A stretch of 64,000 bases of DNA from an uncultured Psychroserpens sp. (GTDB taxonomy: Bacteria; Bacteroidota; Bacteroidia; Flavobacteriales; Flavobacteriaceae), in the NCBI RefSeq assembly GCF_947500255.1, contig NZ_CANMRL010000001.1, forward strand, positions 868,001-932,000. The letters run 5' to 3'. Positions 9,729-43,706 of this stretch are shown piece after piece; the first letter of the stretch is position 1, and each line of letters starts with the position of its first letter. Under the pieces are notes generated by a model. That model was not told the origin of the DNA. It was given only the letters and a program-made list of their open reading frames with translations, and did no database searches. The position numbers were made by a program, and so were the translations under genes.

Positions 9729-10658
9729 TTAATGATTAACTTCTAAACTATAATATTTTACTCGAGCAAAAGCGCCTTCATCTCGCGATTGAAAATAATT
9801 TCCCGCTTTAAAATAGTTTTCAAATATTCCCCATCTTGTCATATGAACATTTTCATAAACTTTATATTCAGTATTATTTAAAATAATAACCATCTTACCT
9901 TCAGATACTTTGACTTCGAGTGTAAACTTTTTAAATCCAACTTTTTCTTCAAAATTAAATCCATCATCATTTCCCCAAGCCTCTTCATGCAAAATATCGG
10001 TATCAGATAAGTTTAAATTTTTCAACACCTTAGTTTTTACCCTTATTTTTCCATTATCCCAATAGATTTTTAATATTGGTGGCGCATTATTATCATCTGC
10101 ACCTATAAGATCACGTTGTTCATTAGTTAATCTACCGTGAATTTGCATGATAATGACACGATGGTATTTACCATTTTTATCTCTTGACACCTCTTCCATG
10201 GCAAGTTTGCCTTTCATAACACCTCCTTGTTTAAAGGTCCAATTGGTATTATTATCACCAGGAATCATTTGCTCTCTTAACTCAGATCTGGAATACTTTG
10301 TATTCCTTGTGGTTGAACTTGTTGGTTTCGCATAAAAAATCAATGCTCCTTTAACTGAATCATTATACATATATGTCTTCAGCTTCTCATTATTTGCATA
10401 ATCCAATATCTCAGGTGCTTCAACTTCATAAGGTTTTCCTTTATCATTAGCAATTGGAATAGTGACTTTCCAATGAGACAAGTCAATATCAGGTAATTTT
10501 ACTTTCTTTTTTTTCTTCTTCTTCTTTCTTTTTTTATCCTGTTTTTCAGTTTTTTTATCCGATTCTGTTACGTTACTACTCTTTTCTTGAGAAGAAACAT
10601 TAACTGATATGAATACCATCAATAGAATTGTTAATATTTCTTTTCGGAAGTTTTTCAT
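9729..10658 (-). CDS. PL7 alginate lyase with poly-lysine linker, secreted
   Basis: Endo-acting alginate lyase (Alginate_lyase2 fold), cutting by beta-elimination. Signal peptide at residues 1-23. Residues 35-54 are an extreme lysine-rich stretch (KKRKKKKKKKK) before the catalytic domain (about 56-309). PL7 motifs: SRSELRE (123-129), MQIHG (171-175) and YFKAGNY (282-288), which hold the catalytic Arg, Gln/His and Tyr. Last gene of the SusC-SusD-PKD operon. Its nearest paralogue in the window (32714-33664) has a poly-glutamate linker at the same place. Confidence 0.93.
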   Translation of the reverse strand: MKNFRKEILTILLMVFISVNVSSQEKSSNVTESDKKTEKQDKKRKKKKKKKKVKLPDIDLSHWKVTIPIANDKGKPYEVEAPEILDYANNEKLKTYMYNDSVKGALIFYAKPTSSTTRNTKYSRSELREQMIPGDNNTNWTFKQGGVMKGKLAMEEVSRDKNGKYHRVIIMQIHGRLTNEQRDLIGADDNNAPPILKIYWDNGKIRVKTKVLKNLNLSDTDILHEEAWGNDDGFNFEEKVGFKKFTLEVKVSEGKMVIILNNTEYKVYENVHMTRWGIFENYFKAGNYFQSRDEGAFARVKYYSLEVNH

Positions 10659-29207: not shown

Positions 29208-31532
29208 TTAATACATCAACTTCATTTTTAAGTTTTCCTCTGTTTTTATTTGTCCAGAATTATCTAAAGTGTTTTCTGATTCTACATTATTTTTTGCTCC
29301 CCATAAGATTGAAACAAACTGCACTGGATTATTTTTAAATGTGTTTTTAGTAATATTTACATTTATAATTCCTCTGTGATTTAAGAGCATTTTGTTTTTC
29401 TCGTTTTTACCACAGTTTGTAAATGTGCTGTTGGTTACTAGAAGGTTTCCTCCTATTGTAGACTCATCATAACCTCCTCTGTAATAATCAATAACATTTG
29501 CTTTTACATTATTGAAATCGCAGTTACTTATCGTTAAGTATTCTGTATTATAATCGCCTTTATCGTTCGTTTCTTCAGACAATTCAATGCCATTTTCACA
29601 GTCAGAAATTAATGTCTCTTTAAAAGTAATTCGTTCTGCAAATGATTCCTTATAGGCTTTTAGCACATAACCAAAATTGCTTATTTCAGAATTAGAAACT
29701 GTCAACCCAAAATGGTTAGACATGTTTTCTTTGAGACTTGCAAAGGCATAATTTGAATTATTTCCTTTTAAGTTTAAATTAGATATTGTTAGTTTTCCGT
29801 AAGATTGCAAAGAGAATAAAGGTGTATTAGATTCTCCTGAATATACAAGTTGTGCTTTTTCATTTCCTTGAGATTGGATAAAAAGCGTTTTGTTAATTGT
29901 TAGAGATTTATCCACATTATAAACACCTTGAGCCAATGCAATTATATCTCCATTATTTGCTTCGTTTATTTTAGCTTCTAACTCATTTATATTAGTAACC
30001 TTATATGTTACGGGTTCTTTAACTTCTACTTCATTGGAAAACCATGTTGTCCCATATTTAGATTTATCTAAAATATTTGGATTAGAAACATCTTTACCTA
30101 TTACTGCACCGACACTCTTACTGTCTTTTCTAGATACACCTAACAAATCGTTTTCAATAGTATTAAAATCAAACCCATTATAGGCTTCAAAATCTGTAGG
30201 AATTCCTACGGGAATATAAATATTATCTGATAATTTTCGTAGCTCTAATGGTGCTTCAACGATACCTTTATTAAATCCGTTAAAGCCTATACCTTGATTA
30301 TTAATGATGTTGTTTTTAAACGTAACACCATCTGCTTTGTCATTTTCTACAACGATGCTTTCTAATCCTTTTTCGTTATATACTATATTATTAGCAACTG
30401 TTGTTCTTATGGCTCTTGCTGAGCGAATTTCAGATTTTGGCAATACATCTGCTTGAGCTAAATTTTGTCCTACACCAAACTGCCAAGGCGAGCTACAATT
30501 CACATAGGTATTATAAGCTACTACAACATCTGTGACTTGGTTGTAACGGTTTAAAGGTGATTTTGGAATACCATTCATAACCGCTAAAGGGCTTCTAAAA
30601 CTTTTCCCTTTAAGGCCATAAAAATAGTTGTTGACGACCCAATGCCCTGTATTTATTATTCTAATGCCTCCATAGTTTTCGTTCACTCCATCACCTATAA
30701 AATAATTACCATCTACAGTTACATAATTACCATGTCGTGTAACTAAAGAGCCTTCGCTTTTATAAAACACGTTGTTTTTAAATACGTTAAAATTTGTTTT
30801 ACTTGAAATGACTTCTACTTCTCCATTACACTCTTCAAACAAATTATTAGCGACCATTGTGTAACTTGGCGACATTGAGGTATAGCTGTCTCCTAATTGA
30901 ATGGTTTCACCACTTGGGCCACCTTTGACTGGTCTTGGTCCAAAATGATTATTAACGATTTGATGGTAATTGTTTATACTTTCTATTCCTGCAATACTAA
31001 CTCTTACCGTTGGTCCTCTGTTAGTTTTTCCTGCAATGTAACAATTACTTAATTCATTATGTCGTCCCCAAAACTGAACCCATAAATCGCTTTTATCGCG
31101 TTTGGGTTTATTAAAATCTTCAATTACACAATTGGTGACTTTGCAATTATTGGAAATTTCATCTGGCGCATCTTTATGTCCAATTTTGAAATCAATCACT
31201 GCATTAGAAGGAGAAAAGCCATTTTTAAAATGTAAGCCTTCTACTATTAAATATTCTCCTCCAAATTTTAAATAAGATTGTCCTTCAATACTAACTTTAC
31301 CAGCTGTTTCGGCTCTCAAGGTTATAGGATTATCTTTAGTGCCTTTGCCTCTAAACTTTATTTCTACATCGTTCCAAATCCCATTAGTCAAAATAATTTC
31401 ATCTCCAGCCTTACAATTCTCAATAGCGTTATTAAGTTCTTTAGCATTGGAAACTGAAATTGAACGGATATCAGACTTCTGCTCACAAGCAAAAATCACT
31501 AGAATAATACATAGAAGAAGACTCTTTTTCAT
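29208..31532 (-). CDS. two-domain PL6 alginate lyase, lipoprotein
   Basis: 774 aa, lipobox IFAC. N-terminal beta-helix (about 25-390) with SSKTNFN and GSLVTRHGN, the Lys/Arg catalytic region of PL6 (chondroitinase B-like fold). A second parallel beta-helix follows (about 505-765; NINELEAKINEANNGDIIAL). This two-helix layout matches the AlyGC-type PL6. First gene of the run PL6-PL7-GntK/Gnd-Nramp-PL7-SDR. No tandem operator precedes it, only a hairpin 34 bp upstream. Confidence 0.93.
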   Translation of the reverse strand: MKKSLLLCIILVIFACEQKSDIRSISVSNAKELNNAIENCKAGDEIILTNGIWNDVEIKFRGKGTKDNPITLRAETAGKVSIEGQSYLKFGGEYLIVEGLHFKNGFSPSNAVIDFKIGHKDAPDEISNNCKVTNCVIEDFNKPKRDKSDLWVQFWGRHNELSNCYIAGKTNRGPTVRVSIAGIESINNYHQIVNNHFGPRPVKGGPSGETIQLGDSYTSMSPSYTMVANNLFEECNGEVEVISSKTNFNVFKNNVFYKSEGSLVTRHGNYVTVDGNYFIGDGVNENYGGIRIINTGHWVVNNYFYGLKGKSFRSPLAVMNGIPKSPLNRYNQVTDVVVAYNTYVNCSSPWQFGVGQNLAQADVLPKSEIRSARAIRTTVANNIVYNEKGLESIVVENDKADGVTFKNNIINNQGIGFNGFNKGIVEAPLELRKLSDNIYIPVGIPTDFEAYNGFDFNTIENDLLGVSRKDSKSVGAVIGKDVSNPNILDKSKYGTTWFSNEVEVKEPVTYKVTNINELEAKINEANNGDIIALAQGVYNVDKSLTINKTLFIQSQGNEKAQLVYSGESNTPLFSLQSYGKLTISNLNLKGNNSNYAFASLKENMSNHFGLTVSNSEISNFGYVLKAYKESFAERITFKETLISDCENGIELSEETNDKGDYNTEYLTISNCDFNNVKANVIDYYRGGYDESTIGGNLLVTNSTFTNCGKNEKNKMLLNHRGIINVNITKNTFKNNPVQFVSILWGAKNNVESENTLDNSGQIKTEENLKMKLMY

Positions 31533-31565
31533 AAAAACTATTTTGTAAAAAATTATAAGATATAA

Positions 31566-31600
31566 AACAAAAAGCTTTTCGTAATAAAAAGCTTTTTGTT
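31566..31600 (-). terminator. hairpin between the T9SS protein and the PL6 gene
   Basis: Perfect 14-bp inverted repeat AACAAAAAGCTTTT (31566-31579) and AAAAGCTTTTTGTT (31587-31600), followed on the minus strand by a T-rich tail. It may end the 33664-31617 transcript fully or only partly, since no independent promoter for the PL6 gene is evident in the 34 bp left. Confidence 0.65.
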
Positions 31601-31616
31601 AGAGGCCAATTTAAAC

Positions 31617-32702
31617 TTACTCAATAATAAGTTTTTTTGTAATACTGTTTCCACTAGATTCAATCTTAACAAAATACAAACCCGAGTTAAAATCTGAAAC
31701 ATTAATACGATTATTAGTTAGCTCACTTTGAGCAAATACATTTTTACCTAATATGTCATACATAACAATTGAAGTTATTGCAACATTGTTCGTTTCAATA
31801 GTAATATAATCTTTTGCTGGATTAGGATATATTTTAAAATTTGATAAGGCAAACTCATCATTTGATAGTGTATTCTGACTTGGATTTGGACCTCCAATAT
31901 GATTTAATTCTGAACCTTCAAAACTTTCCGGATAAGCACGTAGTGCGCTACTACTAGAACTCATTACCCAAAAATCTCCAGCCATAGAAGGAGTAGCTGA
32001 AGAAGGCAAATCAGAACCAACCCAATCAGAAGTTAGTGCATCATTAGTTAATGCATCTCCTGTAGAATTACCTATTCTACCTGCATAATCGAACTGAGTA
32101 CCTGGAGTACTTATGATAGTAGCTCCAACAGGAGCAATTACTGTTGGTGTAGTTGCCTCATTATTCTCTAAAAATACAACTGTTGAATAAGCAACTGCTG
32201 TTGTTGTAGATTGACTATTATCTTTAAGAAGCGTAACGCTATCTAACACAGTCCATCCATCCCAAATTGAACCATCTGGCGTACCGTCTTCGTCAGGATC
32301 AATATCATTTCCAGTAGATGGCGGAGTGGCAGTTTGAATTAACATAATAGTATGCGATTGGCTTTCTACATCACCCGAAAACAAATCTAGTGCTACCGTT
32401 GCATCTGGATTTATATTATAAAAATTTCCTGTTTGTGCAGCCACAAAATAGCCATTTGTTCCAGTTGAAAAAGTACTTATATCTATAACTTCATCGACTC
32501 TTCCCTCATCACTATCTCCGTCACCTTCAATTGTAACAATGTACATGTTTGTAAGAGGAGTTGAAGCAGCACCTCTAATCTCTATAAAGTTATGTGGTGC
32601 ATCTGGAGTACCAGGTGGATCCAACATAACCTCGTTTAAATAAAATTGTGCACTTGCTAATTGACAGGTAAGTAAAAAAATAAAAAGTAATTTTGTTTTC
32701 AT
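31617..32702 (-). CDS. secreted T9SS protein with N-terminal LTD-like domain
   Basis: 361 aa. Signal peptide (LLTCQLASAQ). The start of the mature protein (FYLNEVMLDPPGTPDAPHNF, then IEIRG) resembles lamin-tail-domain (LTD) modules found on secreted bacterial proteins. The C-terminus (IYPNPAKDYITIETNN...) is a T9SS sorting domain. No catalytic motif was recognised. It lies 11 bp after a PL7 gene in the same operator-controlled transcript, so it may be a surface adhesin or alginate-binding partner; that role is inference. Confidence 0.7.
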   Translation of the reverse strand: MKTKLLFIFLLTCQLASAQFYLNEVMLDPPGTPDAPHNFIEIRGAASTPLTNMYIVTIEGDGDSDEGRVDEVIDISTFSTGTNGYFVAAQTGNFYNINPDATVALDLFSGDVESQSHTIMLIQTATPPSTGNDIDPDEDGTPDGSIWDGWTVLDSVTLLKDNSQSTTTAVAYSTVVFLENNEATTPTVIAPVGATIISTPGTQFDYAGRIGNSTGDALTNDALTSDWVGSDLPSSATPSMAGDFWVMSSSSSALRAYPESFEGSELNHIGGPNPSQNTLSNDEFALSNFKIYPNPAKDYITIETNNVAITSIVMYDILGKNVFAQSELTNNRINVSDFNSGLYFVKIESSGNSITKKLIIE

Positions 32703-32713
32703 AATTAATATTT

Positions 32714-33664
32714 TTAATGAGTAATACTCAAATTGTAATATTTCACATAGGAGAAAGCATTTTCATCTGTTGATGTTAGATAATTGCCTGCTTTAAAATA
32801 ATTCTCATATGGCCATTTATCAAGGCTTATATCTTGATAAACATAAGGGGTTTCATTATTAAGTTGTATTTCTATTCTTGCATCTGTGGCAGAAATTCTA
32901 AAATCAAAAGCATCAAAACCAACATATCCTAAGTTTACCTTAATATCATACCATGTATTATTAGATGTTTCAAGCAAATCATCACCATCTGTATCCTCAT
33001 CAATAAGTGATTTTTTGTGAGACCAGACATAACCATCTTTCCAATAGATTTTAATTAATGGTGGACCGTTATTAGATGAAAAACCATGGATATCCATATC
33101 TTCTTCTGAAATAATCCCATGAATTTGCATGACGATAACCTTATGATAATCATCACTAGATTGGTTGTTTTGAGAGACCTCAGAAACTTTAAGTCGTCCA
33201 ATCATTTCTCCTCCTTCAAGTAATGTCCAATTTTCACGTGCATTATCTGGGTTTATAAGTTCTCTTAATTCTGTTCTGGAATATGAACTATTGGTAGTAG
33301 ATACATCTGGATAGGTATAAAAAACAAGAGACGAATCAATGGTATCATCATACATAAATGGTTGAACCGGCTCTAGCGTTTGATATCCAAAATTCATTAA
33401 TTCATCAGGTTGATACTCGTCTGGACTTCCGTTATTATTTGCATCAATAGGTAGTGTGACTTTCCAATTAGAAAAATCGATATCTGCATAAACAGGTGTT
33501 TCCTCTTGCTCTTCTTCTTCCTCCTCCTCTTCTTCATTTTCAACAACCTCATCTAAAACATCAACATCATTAGGTGTATCGTTTTCGCTTGAACACCCAA
33601 CTATGACTAAAAGGAAAAGAAAAAAGACTAATCTAGAGCTATCTGTTTTTATTGTTAATCTCAT
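32714..33664 (-). CDS. PL7 alginate lyase with poly-glutamate linker, lipoprotein
   Basis: 316 aa, lipobox VGCSSEN. Residues ~40-55 are almost pure glutamate (EEEEEEEEQEE), then the PL7 domain: SRTELREL, VMQIHGI and YFKAGNYLT. Paralogue of 9729-10658, in which the same linker position is poly-lysine. First gene after a promoter with a tandem GntR-type operator 24-46 bp upstream. Confidence 0.93.
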   Translation of the reverse strand: MRLTIKTDSSRLVFFLFLLVIVGCSSENDTPNDVDVLDEVVENEEEEEEEEEQEETPVYADIDFSNWKVTLPIDANNNGSPDEYQPDELMNFGYQTLEPVQPFMYDDTIDSSLVFYTYPDVSTTNSSYSRTELRELINPDNARENWTLLEGGEMIGRLKVSEVSQNNQSSDDYHKVIVMQIHGIISEEDMDIHGFSSNNGPPLIKIYWKDGYVWSHKKSLIDEDTDGDDLLETSNNTWYDIKVNLGYVGFDAFDFRISATDARIEIQLNNETPYVYQDISLDKWPYENYFKAGNYLTSTDENAFSYVKYYNLSITH

Positions 33665-33687
33665 GAGTCATTCGTGAATTATAAAAT

Positions 33688-33710
33688 TGGTTTACCAGAT
33701 TGGTTTACCA
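33688..33710. promoter_or_regulatory. tandem GntR-type operator of the PL7/T9SS operon
   Basis: TGGTTTACCA at 33688-33697 and 33701-33710 (13-bp period). Together with its AT flanks it is nearly identical to the susC operator block at 17531-17560, showing shared control. Confidence 0.82.
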
Positions 33711-33739
33711 AATATAAATATATTTTTGAATTGAACAAA
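33709..33739 (-). promoter_or_regulatory. promoter of the PL7/T9SS operon
   Basis: Minus strand: TTTG (33736-33739), 19 bp, TATATTTG (33709-33716). This is a textbook Bacteroidota promoter; the operator starts inside its -7 box. Confidence 0.82.
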
Positions 33740-33905
33740 CTTTGCTCCCATAATTAACAGGTCTTGTCTTACGAATACGTTGATGCTTGATCTTATTCGC
33801 TACAGACACTAATGTTACAAATTCTGTCTACCATCAAAACTTCCTGTTTTTGGGAACATAGACCCCAAAAACGTGTATATTTATCTCCATATAACCAGTT
33901 ATATG
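33740..33905 (+). other. left boundary of the cassette array (site 0, attI- or attC-like)
   Basis: Gene-free stretch. At its right end is a perfect palindrome CATATAAC-CA-GTTATATG (33888-33905), whose right arm is the R'-like end (GTTATAT, 33898-33904) of the first cassette. A 9-bp hairpin GTTTTTGGG (33846-33854) with CCCAAAAAC (33864-33872) lies just upstream, and ACGAATACGTTGATG near 33771-33785 resembles the 3' end of the other attC-like sites. Could be a degenerate attC or an insertion site. Confidence 0.45.
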
Positions 33906-33921
33906 TCATTACTAAAAAAAA

Positions 33922-34860
33922 ATGTCTAGAAGAAAAATATATATTCCAGAGCAAGTAAAAGAAGATATTCGTAACCATCTAAATATCAAATATAAAGTTG
34001 CCCTTGACGGATATTTTTCAGCAAACGAAGATGAAGACACATTAACTGGTGACTTCGGAGGAACTCTACGAGCTCGTAACCGGAAAGTTGAAGTAACTCA
34101 GGACGAGATTAAAGGGGTTTGGTCTTGGTCTTTAAATTATACTAAATTCCGTGGAAGAGGAATCAATGCGACCGAGAATCGTGTTGGCGCAGATGGGATA
34201 ATTGAACTCGAATTAAATAGAGGTTATCGAGTTGAAAAAAAATCAATTCTATTTCAATCCAAACAAAACTGGGTTAGTGATAGCAAATTAATTGAACAAT
34301 GTGTTCTTTTATCAACTTGGAGAGAAGCGGCATTTGTATTAAATTTTGAACCAGACAAATATGAAGCTTTTGAACTAGATTTTATACTCAATAATAAAGG
34401 TAAAAAGCCAAATGAATATGAATCAAGATCTGTTGATGATTTTTTAGGCAATGAATTTTTAAATTGTGATATCGGTGACTCAGATTTACTTTACGATGCA
34501 AGAAGGCGATTACTAAAATGGCGAAGCCAAGAAGGTTTAGTTGTTGGTACAAAATTTTCAATTCCACAAAGATTAGCTTTGAAAATTAAAGCTCCTATTC
34601 CAGGAACAGAAACAAGTTATGATAAAGAAATTTCCAATAATGAAATACATAATCACCGAATGGATTCTAGAGTTGATGAAATATTATCATTACCAAAAAA
34701 TTACACAATGGATCAATTAAACAAATCTAGAAAAAAAATGGCTGCCCTCTATCATCCTGACAAATACAGTCATTTAAGTGATTTAGAACAGGCTATACTT
34801 AATAGACGTATGCAAGAAATTAACATGGCATTTGAAGAATTGAAAAACCGTAAATCGTAA
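33922..34860 (+). CDS. J-domain protein with uncharacterised N-terminal region (cassette 0)
   Basis: 312 aa. The C-terminal ~60 residues form a J domain (MDQLNKSRKKMAALYHPDKY) with the HPD triad at 278-280, which stimulates Hsp70/DnaK ATPase. Residues 1-245 match no family I recognise; they contain charged beta-like segments (GDFGGTLRARNRKVEV, WSWSLNYTKF). No signal peptide or membrane helix, so probably cytoplasmic. The stop codon lies inside the complementary end of the cassette. Likely recruits DnaK to an unknown client; a DNA- or phage-related role cannot be shown. Confidence 0.8.
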   Translation: MSRRKIYIPEQVKEDIRNHLNIKYKVALDGYFSANEDEDTLTGDFGGTLRARNRKVEVTQDEIKGVWSWSLNYTKFRGRGINATENRVGADGIIELELNRGYRVEKKSILFQSKQNWVSDSKLIEQCVLLSTWREAAFVLNFEPDKYEAFELDFILNNKGKKPNEYESRSVDDFLGNEFLNCDIGDSDLLYDARRRLLKWRSQEGLVVGTKFSIPQRLALKIKAPIPGTETSYDKEISNNEIHNHRMDSRVDEILSLPKNYTMDQLNKSRKKMAALYHPDKYSHLSDLEQAILNRRMQEINMAFEELKNRKS

Positions 34861-34864
34861 CGTC

Positions 34865-34997
34865 ATATAACAACGTGTATAGTTAATTACTCGTTCTGTG
34901 TGTACTCGGAAAATCCTATGGATCTCCCTAATGATTCGTTCCCTTTTACTATCTTAGATCTAACCAACATAACTAGCCATACACGAACACGTTGAGC
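34865..34997 (+). repeat. attC-like site A
   Basis: R'' end ATATAAC-AACG (34865-34875), R' end GTTGAGC (34991-34997, fits GTTRRRY). The terminal arms CAACGTG and CACGTTG are complementary. Internal GGAAAATCC (34908-34916) with a partly decayed partner GGATCTCC. 133 bp. Confidence 0.75.
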
Positions 34998-35018
34998 ATA
35001 ATATCCGAAATCACGAGA

Positions 35019-35753
35019 ATGAAGAAAATAACAATTATAATTTTGACTTTAATAAGTCTGACAAGTTTCGCTCAAAGCATTGAAACGATTACCGAAAAAA
35101 TATCGGACAAAATCTGTCAATGTATGAGTGACGAACTAAAAGAATACTCAGAAATAAAACCTGAATTCAATAGGTGCTATGACAAGGAATTTAATTTCAT
35201 ATTTAACATTGTTGACTCGACTGAACATAAAATATTAGTTCAAAAAGGAGCTTTAGAAAAAGTGAAAAATGGAATTATACCAAAGTTAAATGAAAAGTGC
35301 GAAAAAATCAGAAAGCTAATCAAAACTGACGTAGAAAATTCGGCTGAATCCACAACTAATAACCCTTGTCCAACAAATTTCGAGAGTAAAGACTTGAAAA
35401 AAATTAAAAAACGAAATGGGGAAATAGTTGCGCTTAATGGATTAGTTACAAAAGTTCAAAATGCTCATAATGACAAACTTTACTATCAAGTCAAATTGGA
35501 AGGCGGAAAAACCATTTGGATAGCTTCATTAGTAAAAAGTGGATATGAAAAAGAAGGGAAAATATTGAGGCTATTGGGATATGTTTCAGAAGTAGGAAAT
35601 GACGAAATAGCAAAAAAATATAATAATTCGGACTTTCACATACTTGCTTTTTGTGTTATTGAAATGGAAACCAAACAAATGGCAATGCTTCCAGGTTCAG
35701 AACTTCAAATTAAGGAATGGATGAATGGAAAAATTCCGAAGGCAGAAAAATAA
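35019..35753 (+). CDS. secreted protein with C-terminal OB-like domain (cassette 1)
   Basis: 244 aa. The ATG at 35019 is preferred over an in-frame TTG at 34992 because it begins a signal peptide (MKKITIIILTLISLTSFAQS) and the TTG lies in the recombination site. Residues ~20-105 are helical with two cysteines (KICQC...); residues ~125-215 look like a beta-barrel OB fold (IVALNGLVTKVQNAH, KILRLLGYVSEV). No family name can be given. Bounded by complementary ends at 34991 and 35769. Confidence 0.72.
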   Translation: MKKITIIILTLISLTSFAQSIETITEKISDKICQCMSDELKEYSEIKPEFNRCYDKEFNFIFNIVDSTEHKILVQKGALEKVKNGIIPKLNEKCEKIRKLIKTDVENSAESTTNNPCPTNFESKDLKKIKKRNGEIVALNGLVTKVQNAHNDKLYYQVKLEGGKTIWIASLVKSGYEKEGKILRLLGYVSEVGNDEIAKKYNNSDFHILAFCVIEMETKQMAMLPGSELQIKEWMNGKIPKAEK

Positions 35754-35762
35754 AAATACTAT

Positions 35763-35893
35763 GCACAACAATAGCTATAAGTAATTGTTTGTTCTCGCTT
35801 ACTTCTGAAAATCCTAGCGGATTTTCAGCTCGGTGTGAACTTGCAAAGTTAAGTGCTAACCCACGCAACTACTCATGCACAAACACGTTAGCT
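35763..35893 (+). repeat. attC-like site B
   Basis: R'' end GCACAAC (35763-35769), R' end GTTAGCT (35887-35893). Best-preserved central hairpin: CTGAAAATCC (35805-35814), loop TAGC, GGATTTTCAG (35819-35828), 10 perfect pairs. 131 bp. Confidence 0.75.
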
Positions 35894-35917
35894 TGCATTT
35901 AAAACCAACATCGAGAA

Positions 35918-37456
35918 TTGAACAATATTAAAACAAAACTTCAAGAAGTATATATTCCATTTTTAATAGTTTCGATAGGAACTATTCTTTTTTACAACAT
36001 ATTTCGTTGGACTTTAGATATCAAACTCGGAATTTTACCCATAAAAGAAAACTTATTGAATTTTTGGATTCCTTTCGCTCTTCCTTGGATTCCAATACTT
36101 ATTTGGTTACGAAGAAGAATTCGAATTTTAAATGTTAGAGGCAAAAGAGATAATGGATATTTTGGATATCAATTTGCTATGGCAGCAGCAATGGCTGTAC
36201 CAATAATAATAAGTCAAAACTACATTGAGAAAAGTTCTTTTGACTTAAACGAAATATCTTCAATCTCAAAAATTAAAGAATTAAAAAACGAAAAATATTT
36301 TAAAATAACCTCATTTAATATAGACCATAACTCAAGTCTTCCATATGTAACTGCTAGAACTTCTGGTCGAAATAATGAGAATCTGAACTTTTACTTATAT
36401 CTCGCTTGTCCGTTTGAAGAAACAAGCTCTGTTTGGTACGGAGTTGAGTATAAAAAGAATTTAAGTAATCATATTAATGAACAAAGGAAAAATTCAGATT
36501 ACAGAACTTTTTTAAACAAATCAGAACAAGAATTTAAAACCTATAATTTTCAAGATGTAGAATATTTTGAACGTCTAGGATATTCAGACGACAGAGATGG
36601 ATTTATAGAAGCAATAAAAGAAAGAAACGCTAATCTAAACGAAAAAGAACAAATAATACTTGTACCTAAAAATGATGTTTTTGAAGAAAGACTCGGCAAT
36701 TCATTTCCTTGGATTTTTGGGTCTTTTGGAATTGGAGCATTAGCTCTTTTGCTAATGGTAGTAATTCCAAAAATTGACGAAAAGGAATTAAACGATTTTA
36801 AAAAGAACAACCCACTAAAAGAAGATGATTTAAAAGATATGATTGGCTTTTTAAATCCAATGGGCGAAAATAAAGCCACAGCAATTTTATTGCTTCTAAA
36901 TATTATTGTTTTTCTAATTATGACATTTGACGGACTAAACATAGTTTCGCCTACACCAAAAGAATTACTCGAAATTGGAGGGAATAGAAGATTTGAAGTT
37001 ATGAATGGCGAGTATTGGAGGTTATTTTCTTCGATGTTTATTCACGGTGGACTATTACACTTGTTTATGAACTTAATAGGTCTTGGACTTGGAAGCAGTT
37101 TATTGGAAAACATTCTTGGTTCGGTAAAATTAATAATTACCTACATTGTTTGCGGAATACTTGCAAGTTTAGCGAGTATTTATTGGCACGAAAACACAGT
37201 TAGTGTTGGAGCATCTGGGGCAATTTTTGGACTTTATGGTCTAATTTTGGCTTTTACAGTTTTTAAAATTTACCCAAATTATATGAGAGGAATGACTTGG
37301 ATGCTATTAGGACTTTACGCAGGAGTAAGTTTGTTATTTGGATTTTTAGGCGGAATTGATAATGCAGCTCATTTTGGTGGACTGATAAGCGGATTTGTGA
37401 TTGGAGGAATTTTAATATTGACAAATAAAGAACAACTGAAAAAAAACGCAAGCTAA
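35918..37456 (+). CDS. rhomboid intramembrane serine protease with large N-terminal region (cassette 2)
   Basis: 512 aa. TTG start at 35918; the cassette begins at 35887 and the next ATG would cut into the protein. N-terminal ~110 residues hold two or three membrane helices, then a ~130-residue soluble segment and another helix. Residues ~325-505 are a rhomboid domain with HGGLLHLFMN, catalytic serine S433 in GASGAIFG and histidine H485 in NAAHFGG. Rhomboids cleave membrane proteins within the bilayer. The stop codon is inside the R'' core of site C. At ~1.7 kb with its site this is a long cassette. Confidence 0.88.
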   Translation: MNNIKTKLQEVYIPFLIVSIGTILFYNIFRWTLDIKLGILPIKENLLNFWIPFALPWIPILIWLRRRIRILNVRGKRDNGYFGYQFAMAAAMAVPIIISQNYIEKSSFDLNEISSISKIKELKNEKYFKITSFNIDHNSSLPYVTARTSGRNNENLNFYLYLACPFEETSSVWYGVEYKKNLSNHINEQRKNSDYRTFLNKSEQEFKTYNFQDVEYFERLGYSDDRDGFIEAIKERNANLNEKEQIILVPKNDVFEERLGNSFPWIFGSFGIGALALLLMVVIPKIDEKELNDFKKNNPLKEDDLKDMIGFLNPMGENKATAILLLLNIIVFLIMTFDGLNIVSPTPKELLEIGGNRRFEVMNGEYWRLFSSMFIHGGLLHLFMNLIGLGLGSSLLENILGSVKLIITYIVCGILASLASIYWHENTVSVGASGAIFGLYGLILAFTVFKIYPNYMRGMTWMLLGLYAGVSLLFGFLGGIDNAAHFGGLISGFVIGGILILTNKEQLKKNAS

Positions 37457-37605
37457 CAACGTTTATAAAAAATAACGGTTAAATCGCTTAATCGAAAGAA
37501 AATGAATAAATTAGAAGTCAGTTATAGTCCGAAAAGTTAGTGATAAAAATCCGTTACTTTTTATATACCAGACCGTTCTAAACCATTAAAAACAAGGTGT
37601 TAGAT
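37451..37605 (+). repeat. attC-like site C (divergent, 155 bp)
   Basis: R'' AGCTAAC-AACG (37451-37461) and R' GTTAGAT (37599-37605, fits GTTRRRY). The body differs from A, B and E but keeps a long stem: TATAAAAAATAACGG (37464-37478) pairs with CCGTTACTTTTTATA (37551-37565), 14 of 15. The TAGC hairpin block is absent. Confidence 0.65.
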
Positions 37606-37666
37606 GATTAAAATCATTTCATAAGGAGACTCACTTCAGTAATTTGCTCTCAAAACATATTATATC

Positions 37667-38221
37667 ATGAGAGCAATAATCTTATCTGTCTGTTTTGCAC
37701 TACTTTTTAATTACTCCTTTGGTCAAGCAGATAATCAATCAACAAAAAATATTAGTATAGGTTTTGAACTAGATGCTGTACCATATATATTCCAAGGGTA
37801 TTATGCCTCAGTCTGGGTTGGTCACAATCATTTTAGATATAGAGCGGTAATTACAAAAATAGATACACCAGACTTTATCTTAGACGACGGTTTTACCAAT
37901 AATGAAATTAGAGTTTATGCAACTATAGTAGATTACTTTTTTAAACCTGACTTCAAAGGTTGGTGGATTGGGCCTGGCTTAGAGTATTGGGACGCCAAGA
38001 TACAGACCGATGCCAAGTTAAATACTTCAAAATACAACAACGTGATATTTACATTAGGTGGTGGTTACGTATGGAAGTTTTACAAAAACTTCTATTTAAA
38101 TCCATGGGTGGCTGGACATTTAAGAATCGCTGGAGACAAAGATGTTATAGTTGATGGAAGTACGTTTGAAACCCCAGTAATTATCCCTGAAATATCTGTG
38201 AAGTTAGGTTGGCATTTCTAA
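37667..38221 (+). CDS. predicted outer-membrane beta-barrel protein (cassette 3)
   Basis: 184 aa with signal peptide (ILSVCFALLFNYSFG). Alternating aromatic/polar strands (YYASVWVGHNHFRYRAVI, WWIGPGLEYWDAKI, VIFTLGGGYVWKFYKNFYL) and a C-terminal aromatic residue (KLGWHF) are typical of small outer-membrane barrels. No specific family recognised. An AAGGAG stretch lies ~40 bp upstream. Start of the cassette is at 37599. Confidence 0.75.
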   Translation: MRAIILSVCFALLFNYSFGQADNQSTKNISIGFELDAVPYIFQGYYASVWVGHNHFRYRAVITKIDTPDFILDDGFTNNEIRVYATIVDYFFKPDFKGWWIGPGLEYWDAKIQTDAKLNTSKYNNVIFTLGGGYVWKFYKNFYLNPWVAGHLRIAGDKDVIVDGSTFETPVIIPEISVKLGWHF

Positions 38222-38227
38222 TAGTAA

Positions 38228-38317
38228 ATGATAAAAAAGTGTATTGCTTTTGTGGGAGCTGTAGCAATAGGGCTGAATGCTTTAGTAGAATATTTGTTTA
38301 ATGTAAATGTCGGTTAA
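38228..38317 (+). CDS. possible 29-residue hydrophobic peptide
   Basis: ATG at 38228 to TAA at 38317 encodes a small protein with a lysine start and one membrane-like helix (MIKKCIAFVGAVAIGLNALV). It starts 4 bp after the stop of the barrel protein, where the left half of attC-like site D should be. Could be a real small membrane peptide or chance; no homology is recalled. Confidence 0.3.
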   Translation: MIKKCIAFVGAVAIGLNALVEYLFNVNVG

Positions 38318-38325
38318 AATACTGC

Positions 38326-38429
38326 AGATTTTCCTCAGGTTCGTTTTCTTTTGCTAACTTAGTTCCTAGCCAACGTAACACACGAGTGCAGCGAACTGGC
38401 TAAGCAAACCATACACGAACACATTGTAT
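38326..38429 (+). repeat. attC-like site D, left half missing
   Basis: From GATTTTCC (38327-38334) onward it parallels site E (GGTTCGTTTTCTTTT, CTAACTTAGTTC), but the R'' end and the left hairpin arm are absent. Contains two attC-end-like blocks (GTAACACACGAGTG and ATACACGAACAC). Ends in ATTGTAT instead of GTTRRRY. Confidence 0.6.
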
Positions 38430-38463
38430 CCAATGTGATAAAACTTTGGAAGAAAATCAAAAA

Positions 38464-39045
38464 ATGAGAAAACTTGCACTTTTAACTTTCATTACACTTG
38501 ACGGAGTAATGCAAGCTCCTAAACTACCCGAAGAAGACACCTCTAATGGTTTTAAACTTGGTGGTTGGGCAGATAAATATTGGGATGAGGTAATGGAACA
38601 AGTCAAAAGCGAAGCAATGTCAGAGCCATATGATTTACTTCTGGGGCGAAAGACTTATGATATTTTTGCATCTGCTCATAAATCAAACATGAATGGAAAT
38701 TCAGATGAAAGCCCAATGGACAAAGCAACAAAATATGTTGTAACCAATTCGGATAACAAGTTAGAATGGAAAAATTCAATAGCTATTACAGGAAATGTTG
38801 CAGAAGAAATTTCTAAACTTAAATCTCAAGATGGTTTATTATTGCAAGTTCATGGAAGTTGGGATTTGATTCAAACACTACTTTTAAATGACCTTGTTGA
38901 TGAATTTAGAATTTGGACTTTCCCTGTTGTTCTTGGCAAAGGAAAGCGCTTATTTTCTAAAGATTTCGTGCCAAAAAACCTGACTTTAGTTAAATCGGAA
39001 TCAACCTCTAATGGAGTAGTAATGAGTATCTACAAATGTGAATAA
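38464..39045 (+). CDS. RibD C-terminal / DHFR-like reductase domain protein (cassette 4)
   Basis: 193 aa with the RibD_C-type dihydrofolate-reductase-like fold: N-terminal LALLTFITLDGVMQAP, LLLGRKTYDIFA (~55-66), KYVVTNSD and C-terminal PVVLGKGKRLF. ATG 38464 chosen over TTG 38446 because family members begin MRKL..LDG. Such proteins are common in cassettes and mobile DNA; the reaction (NAD(P)H reduction of an unknown substrate) is not known. Starts 35 bp after site D. Confidence 0.85.
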   Translation: MRKLALLTFITLDGVMQAPKLPEEDTSNGFKLGGWADKYWDEVMEQVKSEAMSEPYDLLLGRKTYDIFASAHKSNMNGNSDESPMDKATKYVVTNSDNKLEWKNSIAITGNVAEEISKLKSQDGLLLQVHGSWDLIQTLLLNDLVDEFRIWTFPVVLGKGKRLFSKDFVPKNLTLVKSESTSNGVVMSIYKCE

Positions 39046-39053
39046 ATCACTGG

Positions 39054-39177
39054 CTACAACAACGTAAATAGTTAATTGCTTGATCTGTGTTTATTCGGGA
39101 AAGTCCTAGCGGATTTTCCTCTGGTTCGTTTTCTTTTACTAACTTAGTTCTAACCACTATACACAAATACGCTATAC
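39054..39177 (+). repeat. attC-like site E
   Basis: R'' CTACAAC-AACG (39054-39064), R'-like GCTATAC (39171-39177). Central hairpin GGAAAGTCC (39098-39106), loop TAGC, GGATTTTCC (39111-39119), 9 pairs including one G-T. 124 bp. After it, 39178-39291 is gene-free and contains CAACAACAACGTGCATAAT (~39216-39234), a possible remnant of another site start. Confidence 0.75.
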
Positions 39178-39291
39178 AACATTACACACTCATGCCTATA
39201 AAAGAAGTAAGCCTCAACAACAACAACGTGCATAATACCTTACTCAAGTTGGTTAAGATTGTGAAGCGTTACATTAAAAACCAATTAAAAA

Positions 39292-39714
39292 ATGGAAAGT
39301 AAATCAAATCATAATCAACTTTCTGATAGTAAATTTATTGATCAATTTGCAAATGGGTCTTTAAATCCTGAAATATTTAATCACGAAGCTCATTTACGTT
39401 TGGCTTGGTTATACATTTACAGGCTTGGAATAAAACAAGCCGAACAGGATATACAAGATCAACTTCAGAGTTTTGTTGAAACTGTTGGAGCCAAAGACAA
39501 ATATCATAAGACTTTAACCATAGTTGCCACTAGAATTGTGAACCACTTTATGCAAAAATCTAAGTCGGAGAATTTTACCGACTTCATTAACGAATTTCCA
39601 CAATTAAAATCGGAATTTAAAGAATTGGTAAATACGCATTACAGTTTCAATATTTTCACCTCTGAATTAGCAAAAAGAGAATTTTTAAAACCAGACTTGC
39701 TAGCTTTTGAATAA
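39292..39714 (+). CDS. conserved hypothetical protein (cassette 5)
   Basis: 140 aa, mostly helical, soluble, no signal peptide. Conspicuous FNHEAHLRLAWLYI (~30-43), a motif of small uncharacterised proteins, and a second His-containing segment (ATRIVNHFMQ). Function unknown. No intact attC-like site follows it before the convergent gene at 39755, so it is the last recognisable unit of the array or a host gene at its edge. Confidence 0.65.
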   Translation: MESKSNHNQLSDSKFIDQFANGSLNPEIFNHEAHLRLAWLYIYRLGIKQAEQDIQDQLQSFVETVGAKDKYHKTLTIVATRIVNHFMQKSKSENFTDFINEFPQLKSEFKELVNTHYSFNIFTSELAKREFLKPDLLAFE

Positions 39715-39754
39715 AAACAGTGACTGCACCAAACCGTATAATTAACAATCTTCA

Positions 39755-41881
39755 CTACCAAAAATAAACCTCATCAACAAAAAGCCAAGATGGGTTACCA
39801 GCACTTGGATGCCAGCTAGGTAAGGCGTCATGATTATTAACAACAATCTTAAAGTACCTTGCCGTGGTCTCTGGCAATGCTATAGTGAATTTTTCTTTTC
39901 GAGGGTCTACATTTTTGGTGCTAGGTGCATTTTTTAGGTCTCCCACTTTTTTGTAAATGCCTTTTTCGGTAGTGGATGTAAAAACAGTAATATCTGTTGG
40001 GTATAAAATCCAACTCCCAATATCTTCAAGACAACTAACAGAAATATGATTTACAGTTTGCTTCTCTTTTAGGTCAATAGTAATCTGCAAATCATTACCA
40101 AAATAACCTATCCAATGACCATCTCTAAAATCGGTACTGCCTTCTTTCATATCAAACACCTTTAAAGGATCTGGGTAGCGATCGTCAGGCATTTCTTCTA
40201 TTATAAAATCTGTCACAGCATACTGGACCTTTGCATAGTGTCGTGTAATCACATCACTCGGCTCCCAACCATCTTTAAACGCAGCAATTTTGAGTGTTTT
40301 TGAAGTGTTTAAAATTAGTTTTCTATCAAAAATTTTAGACGTAGAATCTGGCACATCTCCATTGAGCGTATACCGTATGTCTACATTTTTTAATCGACTC
40401 AACACATTAACATGAATTGTATCATTAAACAAGGTTTTACTCGGACTTATTAGTGGTGGTTCTAACTGACTTCTATCTACAAAACCAACAATATCATTTT
40501 GAATGCTAACTCCAAAGGTGTTGGCTAGTCGTTGCGCATTATCATTATCAACATTAGTATTCCATGAGTAAATACGCTTAGGTTGTATTGTCGTTAATAG
40601 GTTTTCAAGTCCTTCTTCGGAAATAGCAGTATTGTGAATATTAAGCACTTCGAGATGCTCCATTGCTTTAAGGTTTTCAATAGTTTTATCTGAAATTGCC
40701 GTACCCTGTAAGCGTAGTGATTTGAGGTTTTTGAACTTTTTAAACCCTGAAGTCATCTCATCTGTTATTCCCGAATTACCAAAATCTAATTCAATGATTT
40801 GTTCATTTAAAGCCAAAAGGGTTTCCATCGTATTTTTAGTTGGAACACTATCTAAATATTTGACATTAAGTTCTGCTTGACCCGGAACCAATTCAAGCAC
40901 ACGAAATCCTGCAGCTTTTACGTCATCAATATCATCTTGAGATGCTTTAGGAATATTTACTTTGTTAAAAACGAGATACTTGTTTAGTTTCTTTTTTAAG
41001 GTGTCATTTTCTGAATTAACAGTCGCATAATTTTCAAAATCTAACCCATTTTCTATCCAATGTTCAATTAACCAAATCTCATCTTTTGTTAATTGCTCCT
41101 TCCCTTCTGGAGGCATATGCTCCTCATCGGAAATAGGAAGCAACACTCTTGAATACAATAAACTTTCCGAAGCATTTCCACTAATAACACTCAACCCGCT
41201 CGCACCACCTTTTAAGATCTGCTCTTTTGTAACTAGTGACAATTCTCCTTTTTGCTTTGATGCATTATGACATTGAATACATTTTTTATCCAAAATCTTT
41301 GCAACGACATCATTGTATAGCTTTAAACTATCAATGTCTTCAATCGTGCGTTCTTTTTTCGAAACACTTATGTATTCGGTTAAATACTGATCACCATGTG
41401 TTAAAACACTTCCATAATGACCAGCAACACTAATACTAATTACAGTTGCTATAAACAATGGAAGAAAGATCTTATTCGACTTAAAAGACGGCTTTAAACT
41501 CATAAAGAAAAGAACAACAGCTAATAGTGCTGTAGCAATTCCTGTATAAAAATGAAGGTCTAAGGTCTCCTTTTGATAACCGCCTTCTAAAGATAAAAAG
41601 TAACCCAAAAAACAGGTGATGATTGCAAAAAGTGAAGTAAAACCGAGCAAACTCTTTATGGTGTTTTCTGGATAGTTCTTCTGAAATCTTCCTAAAACAT
41701 CAATAAAAAAAGTGACTATCAATGCACCAATTGGTAAATGTAAAAGCAATGGATGAAAACGTCCTAAGGCTAAAATAAATCGAGGTGCTTCATCTGTTTT
41801 TATACCATACAATGTTAGTACTCCAAATAGGAGTAGTATTATTAAAAAAACACTTTTATATATCTGATTATTATTTGTCAT
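39755..41881 (-). CDS. membrane c-type cytochrome with LRR and C-terminal discoidin-like region
   Basis: 708 aa. N-terminal ~160 residues: five membrane helices with the DUF2231-like FHPLLLHLPIGALIVTFF. Planctomycete-type cytochrome domain with one CxxCH haem site (C201-H205, CIQCH). Leucine-rich repeats (~355-440). A chitobiase C-terminal-like segment (DIRYTLNGDVPDS) and a C-terminal galactose-binding-like domain. Last gene of the five-gene operon from 47519. ATG overlaps the preceding stop (TAATG). Role unknown; haem suggests periplasmic electron transfer or sensing. Confidence 0.82.
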   Translation of the reverse strand: MTNNNQIYKSVFLIILLLFGVLTLYGIKTDEAPRFILALGRFHPLLLHLPIGALIVTFFIDVLGRFQKNYPENTIKSLLGFTSLFAIITCFLGYFLSLEGGYQKETLDLHFYTGIATALLAVVLFFMSLKPSFKSNKIFLPLFIATVISISVAGHYGSVLTHGDQYLTEYISVSKKERTIEDIDSLKLYNDVVAKILDKKCIQCHNASKQKGELSLVTKEQILKGGASGLSVISGNASESLLYSRVLLPISDEEHMPPEGKEQLTKDEIWLIEHWIENGLDFENYATVNSENDTLKKKLNKYLVFNKVNIPKASQDDIDDVKAAGFRVLELVPGQAELNVKYLDSVPTKNTMETLLALNEQIIELDFGNSGITDEMTSGFKKFKNLKSLRLQGTAISDKTIENLKAMEHLEVLNIHNTAISEEGLENLLTTIQPKRIYSWNTNVDNDNAQRLANTFGVSIQNDIVGFVDRSQLEPPLISPSKTLFNDTIHVNVLSRLKNVDIRYTLNGDVPDSTSKIFDRKLILNTSKTLKIAAFKDGWEPSDVITRHYAKVQYAVTDFIIEEMPDDRYPDPLKVFDMKEGSTDFRDGHWIGYFGNDLQITIDLKEKQTVNHISVSCLEDIGSWILYPTDITVFTSTTEKGIYKKVGDLKNAPSTKNVDPRKEKFTIALPETTARYFKIVVNNHDALPSWHPSAGNPSWLFVDEVYFW

Positions 41882-42666
41882 TAATTAAAAATCCATTCGT
41901 CCATAAACAGCCATGCTTTGAGTCCTTTTCCTGCATGCCATTCTGGTAATTCTTTGGTATTACTTATCATTACCGATAGTGATTCAACATTTTTTTCTAT
42001 TAAAATTCGAACATCATCTAATGCCAAAACCTCTTTGTTTTCTGGTTTAGGTGTTTTTGCTTGTACTGTATCTGTTTTATTAATTATTACAGAGACGACC
42101 TCTGGCGGAAAAATCCAAGATTTTGTGTCCACCAAATAGCCTACAGTAATACTTTTAATATACGTGTCTTTTGCAAAATGAACATTGGCTTTCACAATAG
42201 TATCAAAACCTACCCATTGTTGATCTCTAAAATTTAACTCTGCTTTTTGATGGTTCACAAGTGTTGAGTCACCTAAGCCTGGATAGGTACTATGTGCTTT
42301 GGTCTTCCAGTCGATACTAAGAGGCGTAATTCCTTTTTGATAAACTCTCAATTCTGAAACAGTACTAGGTTTCCAATCGGGATGAAAGGCTTTAAACTTA
42401 TAACGCCCTTCTTCACTTACTACTAAAGCCGATTTATAGGCCTCTGAGGATTTAGATGGTTCGGAACCATCAGATGTATAAAATATCTCAACCCCTTTCA
42501 TACGTAATTCTGAAGTGATTACAACTGAAGAATCAATAATCGTATTTGATGCTTTTACTCTGGGCTGCTCCAATTGAATATCTTGCTGTTGAACATACGG
42601 ACTCTTATCTTTTTTAGCACAACCAAAAAAGCAAAGCATGACCAAAACCACAATGTTCACTTTCAT
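41881..42666 (-). CDS. lipoprotein with chitobiase-C-terminal-like and discoidin-like regions
   Basis: 261 aa. ATG at 42666 begins a lipoprotein signal (VLVMLCFFGC) and overlaps the upstream stop as ATGA; an in-frame start at 42708 would add 14 residues before the signal and is rejected. Residues ~45-105 resemble the Fn3-like chitobiase C-terminal domain (GVEIFYTSDGSEPS), the rest a galactose-binding-like domain. Shares this two-part layout with the C-terminus of the next gene, so the two may derive from one another. Confidence 0.8.
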   Translation of the reverse strand: MKVNIVVLVMLCFFGCAKKDKSPYVQQQDIQLEQPRVKASNTIIDSSVVITSELRMKGVEIFYTSDGSEPSKSSEAYKSALVVSEEGRYKFKAFHPDWKPSTVSELRVYQKGITPLSIDWKTKAHSTYPGLGDSTLVNHQKAELNFRDQQWVGFDTIVKANVHFAKDTYIKSITVGYLVDTKSWIFPPEVVSVIINKTDTVQAKTPKPENKEVLALDDVRILIEKNVESLSVMISNTKELPEWHAGKGLKAWLFMDEWIFN

Positions 42667-43706
42667 ACTCGCATTAATTTTATGGGATAGGTTTGACCCG
42701 AATTCCATTGTGCCACATACATATTCTCATCATCATCAATACACACATCATGAGGATGTTGAAATAATCGAATAGTTTGATATAGCTCTTCTAGGTTGTC
42801 ATTTTTATAAGAAGGAGCTGTAGCTCCAGGACAAGATATGACTTCATTATTCTCATTCATAATTAAAATAAAGCCAGAGTTTGAGCGCAATGAATTTTTA
42901 GACCTCAACACGGCAAAATAAATGTCCTTTTTATGAATCACAGGACGACAAATTAAAGCGCCAGGTACATTTATAGTTTCTAAAAATTCACCCTTCAAAC
43001 TAAATCGTTTTAATTGATTTAATTCTCTTGCAGATATTAAAAGTGACGGATTTTGTTTGTCTCTATCATCATAACAAATCCCATGAGCATTTAAAAACTG
43101 TCTGTTTCCAGTTCCTTGTCCTCCAAAAATATTCAATAACTCTCCTTTGTGATTATAATGTAAAATATGCTGCTTACCATAACCATCTGCAACATAAAAA
43201 TCACCATTCTCAACCACAGTGGTCTCCGTTGGTTTGAACTCCTCTTTTGTCGAGTACTTTCCTGTTTCCGAAGGAAAATCTAAAGTAAATACAACCTTAC
43301 CGTCTATAGTAGTTTTAATGATTTGGTGACGTTCATAATCGGTAATTAATAAAAAATCTGTTCCATTTTCTTTCACTAAAGTTAATCCATGTGCGCCAGG
43401 ATACTCTGTTCCCCAAGTTTCTAATAACGTTCCAGATTTATCATAGATAATCACATTATTCTTAATATGATTGGTCAATAACACAATTCGTCCCTTCGAA
43501 TCTTGAACCATCTCATGACAATCATTAACAGGTGTTTTTAATGAATTAAGCTGTCCCCAATTAAGATTGACTTTATACTTATGAGAGTTGTGTCCAACAA
43601 TAATATCTTCGGTCTTACTAAACGAAAAAGCACTACTATACATAGGATACGTTAATAATCCCATAGCAAGACATGACGATTGCTTTAGAAATTTCCTCCT
43701 ACTCAT
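42663..43706 (-). CDS. NHL-repeat beta-propeller protein, Tat-exported
   Basis: 347 aa. Twin-arginine signal (SRRKFLKQSS). Six-bladed propeller repeats such as GAHGLTLVKENG, GDFYVADGYGK, NAHGICYDD and HPHDVCIDDDENMYVAQWN. NHL propellers bind partners or act on small substrates; no catalytic site can be pointed to. One bp separates it from the DUF1501 gene. Confidence 0.85.
   Translation of the reverse strand: MSRRKFLKQSSCLAMGLLTYPMYSSAFSFSKTEDIIVGHNSHKYKVNLNWGQLNSLKTPVNDCHEMVQDSKGRIVLLTNHIKNNVIIYDKSGTLLETWGTEYPGAHGLTLVKENGTDFLLITDYERHQIIKTTIDGKVVFTLDFPSETGKYSTKEEFKPTETTVVENGDFYVADGYGKQHILHYNHKGELLNIFGGQGTGNRQFLNAHGICYDDRDKQNPSLLISARELNQLKRFSLKGEFLETINVPGALICRPVIHKKDIYFAVLRSKNSLRSNSGFILIMNENNEVISCPGATAPSYKNDNLEELYQTIRLFQHPHDVCIDDDENMYVAQWNSGQTYPIKLMRV

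Follow-up and report, generated by a model that had tools for sequence, protein, structure and literature searches.

The stretch of DNA analysed here, referred to as the window, comprises 64,000 nucleotides of an uncultured Psychroserpens sp. (contig NZ_CANMRL010000001.1, positions 868,001 to 932,000), and the subject of this account is an integron-like array of gene cassettes that it carries between positions 33818 and 39714. An initial annotation had described the array as six one-gene units on the plus strand in a minus-strand background, separated by related repeats and lacking an integrase, that is, as a cluster of attC sites lacking integron-integrases (CALIN). The coordinates of the open reading frames (ORFs) agree with this arrangement, the six plus-strand genes being flanked on both sides by minus-strand neighbours (the starts of two of the six were shifted to an inner ATG), and a repeat search recovered related repeats between the genes, grouped in families D1-D7. 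Overlooked at that stage was an attI site at the start of the array, a satellite module on the plus strand at 33818..33900 with the core TATATTTATCTCCATATAACCA^GTT at 33876-33900.

All features of the array lie on the plus strand. Cassette 1 (33899..34991) carries a gene for a protein of 312 aa (33922-34860), whose C-terminal J-domain match falls just under the Pfam cut-off (DnaJ, 26.1 against 27.8 bits), and ends in attC site A (34869..34993), which runs from AAC at 34869 to GTT at 34991 and is matched by a covariance model, R1, at 34860-35001 with 123.6 bits. The gene of cassette 2 (34992..35887; gene 35019-35753) has no family match in Pfam or NCBIfam, its N-terminal start resembles a signal peptide by eye, and it is followed by site B (35767..35889; model match 35758-35897, 103.2 bits). 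Cassette 3 (35888..37599) encodes a protein with a rhomboid protease domain (gene 35918-37456; PF01694, E 6e-28) and ends in the divergent site C (37455..37601; model match 37446-37582, 20.1 bits), the AAC of which, at 37455, overlaps the stop codon of the gene, the initial annotation having remarked that several stop codons lie inside or next to the repeats. Cassette 4 (37600..38423) holds a gene for 184 aa without a family match (37667-38221) together with a 3' remnant of a VIT1-family gene (~38254-38317), and its site D (38294..38425) is missing the 5' half, the model matching 38294-38378 with 36.2 bits over model positions 30-115 of 142. Cassette 5 (38424..39171) encodes a RibD C-terminal domain (gene 38464-39045; PF01872, E 1.8e-18) and ends in site E (39058..39173; model match 39049-39181, 104.7 bits). 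GTT is retained in sites A, B and C and replaced by ATT at 38423 in site D and by GCT at 39171 in site E; with attI intact and two of five attC sites devoid of GTT, the window copy is, on these bases, ageing. The 5' half of another attC stands alone at 39222..39245 (family D5) ahead of gene 6, the last unit (39292..39714, 140 aa, no family match), after which no attC site was found in the window. A search of Rfam with 33800-39800 gave one sub-threshold match, without meaning, and none of eight cassette proteins had a match in PADLOC.

The R1 model was built on the bottom strand from nine training sites, two of them from a duplicated cassette and three being A, B and E of the window; sites C and D were excluded. 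The counts obtained with it are lower bounds because only the best candidates per genome were scored, namely the best 150 of 1574 in the genome to which the window belongs and the best 92 in each relative. Within its own genome there are at least 59 sites at E <= 1, lying in several one-orientation clusters, and sites at E <= 0.001 occur in 23 of 35 relatives, including all 21 of the same genus, which have between 3 and at least 92 sites each. The one-contig genome G002 has 284 sites, spread along ~266 kb and beginning just 3' of its integrase. A weak minus-strand match in the window (26904-27041, 16.4 bits, E 0.11) lies within a coding gene and is probably due to chance. The initial annotation had called the repeats structured, and this is borne out by seven integrase-linked copies, for which the fold compared with shuffled sequence gave z of -2.4 to -4.8, but not by the window copies, for which the corresponding DNA-fold values (top/bottom strand) were 0.0/-0.6 for A, -2.0/-1.7 for B, -0.7/-0.8 for C and -0.2/+0.5 for E. 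Of the two observations that the initial annotation named as refuting it, repeats that fold no better than shuffled sequence is therefore what the window itself shows. Since the window copies fold poorly when alone, the case presented here is built from relatives, and it is these that sustain the reading.

For a cassette that forms a circle by closure at G^TT, pairing is expected between the bases after the GTT at its start and those that precede AAC at its own end. Such pairing averaged 5.96 of 7 positions in 368 cassettes, as against 2.64 of 7 for the two arms of one site within the array (n = 391) and 2.58 (sd 0.08) for shuffled sequence. As 269 of the 368 cassettes come from G002, the comparison was also made without that genome, giving 5.51 of 7 (n = 99) and 2.57 of 7 (n = 120) respectively. 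Cassettes 1, 2, 3 and 5 of the window scored 6, 6, 7 and 6 of 7, and their sites in place 0, 0, 3 and 2. Both boxes, R'' and R', were recognised in 392 of 506 sites (locus L071 having been dropped as a copy of L079); the boxes carry AAC and GTT, and the stem between them continues in the excised circle. The description of the units as integron cassettes stands. In 26 pairs of repeated cassettes from G002 the identity is 0.60 as far as the last base ahead of GTT and 0.99 beyond it, the GTT being supplied by the site caller; the cassette's own attC is common to the copies (0.986) and the preceding one is not (0.763), and in all 16 families compared (one pair each) the own attC has moved along with its cassette. 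By sequence comparison the recombination breakpoints lie at GTT, where the initial annotation had put them. An exact tandem duplicate of a 712-bp cassette is present in the integrase-linked array of the window's own genome, and there are five pairs of full-length cassette matches between loci, the best two (88%) linking G002 with the own array L101. The longest ORF runs forward in 211 of 280 G002 cassettes and in reverse in 6, with none of 60 aa in the remaining 63, and each of the 49 stretches with matches (61 were searched) has its sites in a single orientation.

Short, palindromic and intergenic repeats might instead be miniature inverted-repeat transposable elements, repetitive extragenic palindromes or terminators standing by chance behind unrelated genes, and the weak folding of the window copies would suit this; yet such elements leave unexplained the own-end pairing, the breakpoints at GTT, the presence of an integrase and attI at the head and the one orientation of each array, and the explanation is scarcely credible. 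The surroundings of the R stem are conserved outside the variable bases (AC-N6-YAAC, with a further A and T at 10-11 bases past GTT). The own array also contains, at 13374-13434 of locus L010, a short site that resembles attC but differs markedly in sequence and ends CAAACC^GTT; the start and end of its cassette pair, which suggests a cassette from another taxon.

A marked strand asymmetry is seen in the L stem of the attC sites. In 358 distinct sites there are 1352 positions at which the top strand has A.C, and thus the bottom strand G.T, as against 41 with G.T on the top strand; 351 sites favour the bottom-strand fold and 2 the top. L-stem pairs 2 to 9 lie inside the search patterns, and the count was therefore repeated on pairs outside them, which gave 711 against 29 positions, with 329 sites favouring the bottom strand and 5 the top; without G002 the recount is 188 against 10. 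The bottom strand is the putative substrate. The stems of new-type sites are in register in 51 of 64 cases, with an extra base in the 5' arm in 1, ties in 10 and a base in the other arm in 2, whereas the IntI-type sites of the phylum have the extra 5'-arm base in 16 of 22 cases, are in register in 2 and tie in 4. This extrahelical test covered 21 chosen new-type loci (sites from 16) and 15 IntI loci (sites from 7), and a grid test covered 18 new-type loci. Extrahelical bases are counted among the elements common to all known attC sites in the available text of Bouvier et al. (PMC2727003). The suggestion in the initial annotation of an attC form peculiar to Bacteroidota proved right. The unpaired central spacers are of 2 and 5 nt in new-type sites and of 2 and 6 nt in IntI-type sites; the asymmetry of the spacers had been considered as a difference from classical attC and was dropped, IntI-type sites having the same short 5' spacer.

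No integrase was found among the ORFs at 31000-43000 or, by tblastn, upstream of attI. A search of the whole genome for tyrosine recombinases revealed three, an XerD-like protein, an XerC-like protein and a protein of 375 aa encoded on contig C4, where cassettes with repeats of the window type lie directly downstream of its gene. The integrase is thus outside the window, as the initial annotation had expected, but the IntI-type recombinase for which it proposed to search is not what was found. The 375-aa integrase passes the NCBI XerA/integron model NF040815 (226.1 against a cut-off of 220) and fails the integron-integrase model TIGR02249 (202.8 against 265). The additional domain around patch III, given as the defining feature of IntI in the part of PMC9668308 that treats it, is absent from the five new-type sequences compared and present in the three IntI ones. 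In a quick tree without bootstrap, 58 new-type rows formed one clade (Shimodaira-Hasegawa-like approximate likelihood ratio test 98) and 18 IntI rows a separate clade (100); an archaeal row, L077, was unplaced and N_L053 was excluded for its long branch. The nearest named relative of the 375-aa integrase is from Psychroserpens luteolus (93%). Among the invariant residues are R235, K260, H324, R327, H350 and Y359, at the places where the catalytic residues of such an enzyme would stand. The protein is the likely catalyst of cassette recombination. Its closest solved folds are XerA 5hxy and IntI4 2a3v, and a C-terminal PLD motif can be seen by eye, as in IntI. An N-terminal domain of ~100 aa has as its nearest fold, by a weak match, the HARP / XPB damage-recognition domain, and it may aid the reading of the folded site.

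Integrases of the new type (E <= 1e-70) were found in 92 of the 296 genomes sampled from the phylum and in 22 of 30 in the family of the window, those designated type-2 being common in the genus. IntI scores above cut-off in 84 of the 296, and of the 85 genomes with a match none is of this family and one is of this class. The general architecture, including the 2-nt 5' spacer of IntI-type attC in the phylum, would be that of a classical IntI array which has lost intI, an ordinary CALIN; however, the extrahelical base is absent from the new-type attC, the array-linked integrase lacks the IntI domain and falls outside the IntI clade, and none of the 85 IntI-matching genomes belongs to the family, for which 30 genomes were sampled. 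Such an origin is very unlikely. A further proposal, that the modules are moved by the housekeeping XerC and XerD at dif-like sites, could draw on the presence of XerC- and XerD-like proteins and on the Xer-like character of the cassette integrase itself, but the closest site detected on the contig of the XerD-like gene is more than 100 kb away from it, and the XerC contig yielded none; the gene for the 375-aa integrase has a site at a distance of 0.9 kb. This proposal is extremely improbable. Of 191 sites scanned around integrase genes, 169 lie downstream on the strand of the integrase, 5 upstream on the same strand and 17 on the opposite strand, all of these at locus L092.

In most of 50 loci the GTT insertion point lies, by eye, no more than ~150 bp 3' of the integrase stop codon. 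Many type-1 integrases, the kind present in the window's own genome, have there a palindrome before AATT^GTT, and type-2 integrases have TATATTTR-N5-ATATAACNA^GTT. An attI matrix was made from 15 type-2 integrase-linked sites of other genomes, being those of the 50 loci that match a regular expression, and in leave-one-out scoring these 15 gave 21.6-39.2 bits. The left edge of the window array scores 35.5 bits and the next best position in the 64 kb 13.5, and it follows that the array begins at attI. The initial view of a CALIN holds in that no integrase is near and is incomplete in that attI stands at the head and the gene for a cassette integrase lies on another contig. The pattern has six exact copies in the own genome, each with attC-like sites next on the same strand, including one at C4:132509 with a single such site before the integrase array begins. 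Allowing up to 2 mismatches, there are 61 matches in 20 of 23 genus genomes and 4 in a reversed control; with the spacer one base longer there are 16 matches and 16 in the control, which is background. In the complete, one-contig genome G003 there are 14 matches (<=2 mismatches; 7 exact), one of which adjoins its type-2 integrase, and 13 of the 14 have attC-like sites (E <= 0.05) within 6 kb on the same strand and none on the opposite strand, three copies within 5 kb of each other having their sites counted in common.

The same locus could be compared in P. luteolus (G004), where its flanks are 95.5% and 96% identical to those in the window. On the left the two match as far as 33900, where GTT ends; beyond this P. 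luteolus has different cassettes, and homology resumes at 39744, past gene 6; the replacement of whole units between related genomes, predicted at the outset, is thus seen, and in these two sequences the same attI locus carries different cassettes in two species. Cassette 4 retains a trace of both: the window has the 184-aa gene and a VIT1 remnant, and P. luteolus has VIT1 (PF01988) and a remnant of the 184-aa gene, which points to a past common to the two loci. Four of the six own attI copies occur at the same loci in P. luteolus.

From these observations the window array is very probably a satellite platform of a flavobacterial chromosomal integron-like system, on which a non-IntI tyrosine recombinase encoded elsewhere would act in trans. 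According to this scheme a recombinase of a lineage separate from IntI would take as its substrate the folded bottom strand of attC, with a cassette-specific R stem ending in AAC/GTT, spacers of 2 and 5 nt and a long L stem with G.T wobbles; recombination at G^TT would excise a cassette as a circle or insert it behind attI, and the N-terminal domain, with its weakly XPB-like fold, might help to read the folded site. The attI would be a module of ~71-83 bp, overlapping the type-2 integrase gene at its 3' end and present in further copies elsewhere, so providing several docking sites per genome, each with its own array. The anatomy of the array, the cassette unit and its breakpoint, the strand asymmetry, the attI copies, the 712-bp duplication and the change of cassettes between the two species can be read from the sequences; catalysis by the 375-aa integrase, folding of single strands in the cell, action in trans at the satellites and spread of the module as a unit are what these data suggest rather than what they display. 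A wider formulation, which we favour with moderate confidence, is that of a distributed integron in which one integrase serves many dispersed attI modules of ~80 bp, each growing an array, and in which integrase and attC solve the problem of single-strand recombination in a manner unlike that of IntI: the integrase without the IntI domain and with an N-terminal domain of a junction-reading type, and the attC without an extrahelical base and with the choice of strand made by G.T wobbles.

A different history for the satellites is that they are old complete integrons of which attI and the cassettes remain after deletion of the type-2 integrase gene. Within the genus such integrases are common, the 5' part of the window attI module resembles the 3' end of their genes, and the own and P. 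luteolus genomes have yielded no integrase of that type. Independent deletions would be expected to end variously, yet the 11 own and P. luteolus attI copies have ~83 bp in common and a single left boundary near -54. G010, G020 and G021 each have a copy linked to an integrase, and there satellite and linked attI match over 71-80 bp only, from within the 3'-terminal part of the integrase gene to GTT or one base past it (in G003 the satellite-linked match found was 42 bp). G003 has 14 attI matches and one type-2 integrase, and a tblastn search of the sequence that precedes attI in the window detected no remnant of an integrase (best E 0.15). The lengths of the matches and the single left boundary point to a module that probably spreads as a unit, and deletion as the origin of the satellites, though possible, is doubtful.

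Several observations weigh against the reading of the array as a satellite platform of an integron-like system. The integrase of the own genome is type 1, with a different attI, and the window attI is type 2; action in trans is therefore weakest for the own genome. A type-2 integrase turned up neither there nor in P. luteolus, the assemblies of both being drafts, and the window array may be a frozen relic. Its attC sites fold no better than shuffled sequence, a detector that uses architecture alone sees no linked cassette in the window slice, and three smaller site clusters of the own genome (C2:502-505 kb, C6 and C3:81 kb) have no match to the attI pattern. At L092 (genome G014) the array of 17 sites is divergent from the integrase; the distant loci L199, L203 and L207 showed no array in the 15 kb examined downstream; and of the 22 IntI-type sites in the extrahelical comparison 17 come from two arrays.

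The detector based on architecture alone, which asks for AAC, 2-3 nt, a stem, 4-6 nt and GTT together with own-end pairing, gave ten matches in 222 shuffled sequences, shuffled on one strand. In other families it found linked cassettes at L205 (7), L202 (3), L201, L208, L204 and L209 (2 each) and L120 and L121 (1 each), all in the direction of the integrase, with attC sequences unrelated and integrases homologous. Two matches at genus loci run counter to the array (1 of 6 at L084 and 1 of 1 at L102).

The system shares much with the integrons and superintegrons of the IntI type: one-gene cassettes in one orientation, an imperfect-palindrome attC with its breakpoint at G^TT, a cassette-specific R stem, a short 5' spacer, an attI, a tyrosine recombinase leading the array and the capacity for hundreds of cassettes. 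It differs in that the integrase lies outside the IntI clade and is without the IntI-specific domain, the attC has bottom-strand G.T wobbles and no extrahelical base, and the attI follows the integrase gene on its 3' side, the array runs in the direction of the integrase, and further attI copies exist elsewhere in the genome. From a CALIN, which the window array resembles in the absence of a nearby integrase and in the partial decay of its attC, it is distinguished by the attI at its head and the cassette integrase elsewhere in the genome. With XerA, XerC and XerD the integrase has in common the catalytic domain, the NF040815 match and the XerA fold, but not the ~100-aa N-terminal domain, the PLD motif or the adjoining cassette array. 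An integron-like subgroup of tyrosine recombinases has been reported (PMC8138268), the available text of which does not describe Bacteroidota arrays, attC or attI. A survey of 2022, in the portion available, lists for Bacteroidetes integrases without cassettes and one complete integron, in Salinibacter ruber (PMC9024848). The flavobacterial lineage would add to this sites in all 21 genus relatives, an array of 284 sites in G002 and homologous integrases in 92 of 296 genomes. Searches of one open-access library found no like system, which is no proof of novelty. It would offer a natural test of the roles of the IntI additional domain and the extrahelical base, both of which are missing together here, and several attI per genome would allow cassettes to be placed in different chromosomal contexts, which is impossible for an integron with a single platform.

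A number of lesser observations concern the integrase loci. L092 resembles divergent integrons and is the sole such locus among those scanned. In G006 there are two copies of the integrase ~40 kb apart (L085 and L086), each with an in-frame stop and each beside an array, besides an intact type-2-like integrase elsewhere in the genome. A related recombinase was found in L077, from a Pacearchaeota metagenome-assembled genome (43% over residues 103-375), and R1 gave no site in the 11 kb around it. GGA-N5-TCC, reported as an SOS motif for Flavobacteriaceae in the section of PMC8565304 available, occurs in 4 of 21 loci (L080, L082, L075 and L193) in the 350 bp that precede the integrase; these four are type-1 and have it in the form GGAT-N3-ATCC. 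It was not found upstream of the own integrase, and CTAA-N5-TTAG was found upstream of none of the 21. SOS control of some of these integrases is possible on the strength of these motifs. Just upstream of the own integrase gene there is a palindrome, ATATTATTCGAATAATAT (L010 ~9758-9786), which is a possible operator. In the window itself the cassette array lies at the edge of a minus-strand alginate utilisation locus (12765-33664) that contains a SusC/SusD pair, a Hepar_II_III/alginate lyase, two Alginate_lyase2 proteins (PF08787) and a chondroitinase B-like protein.

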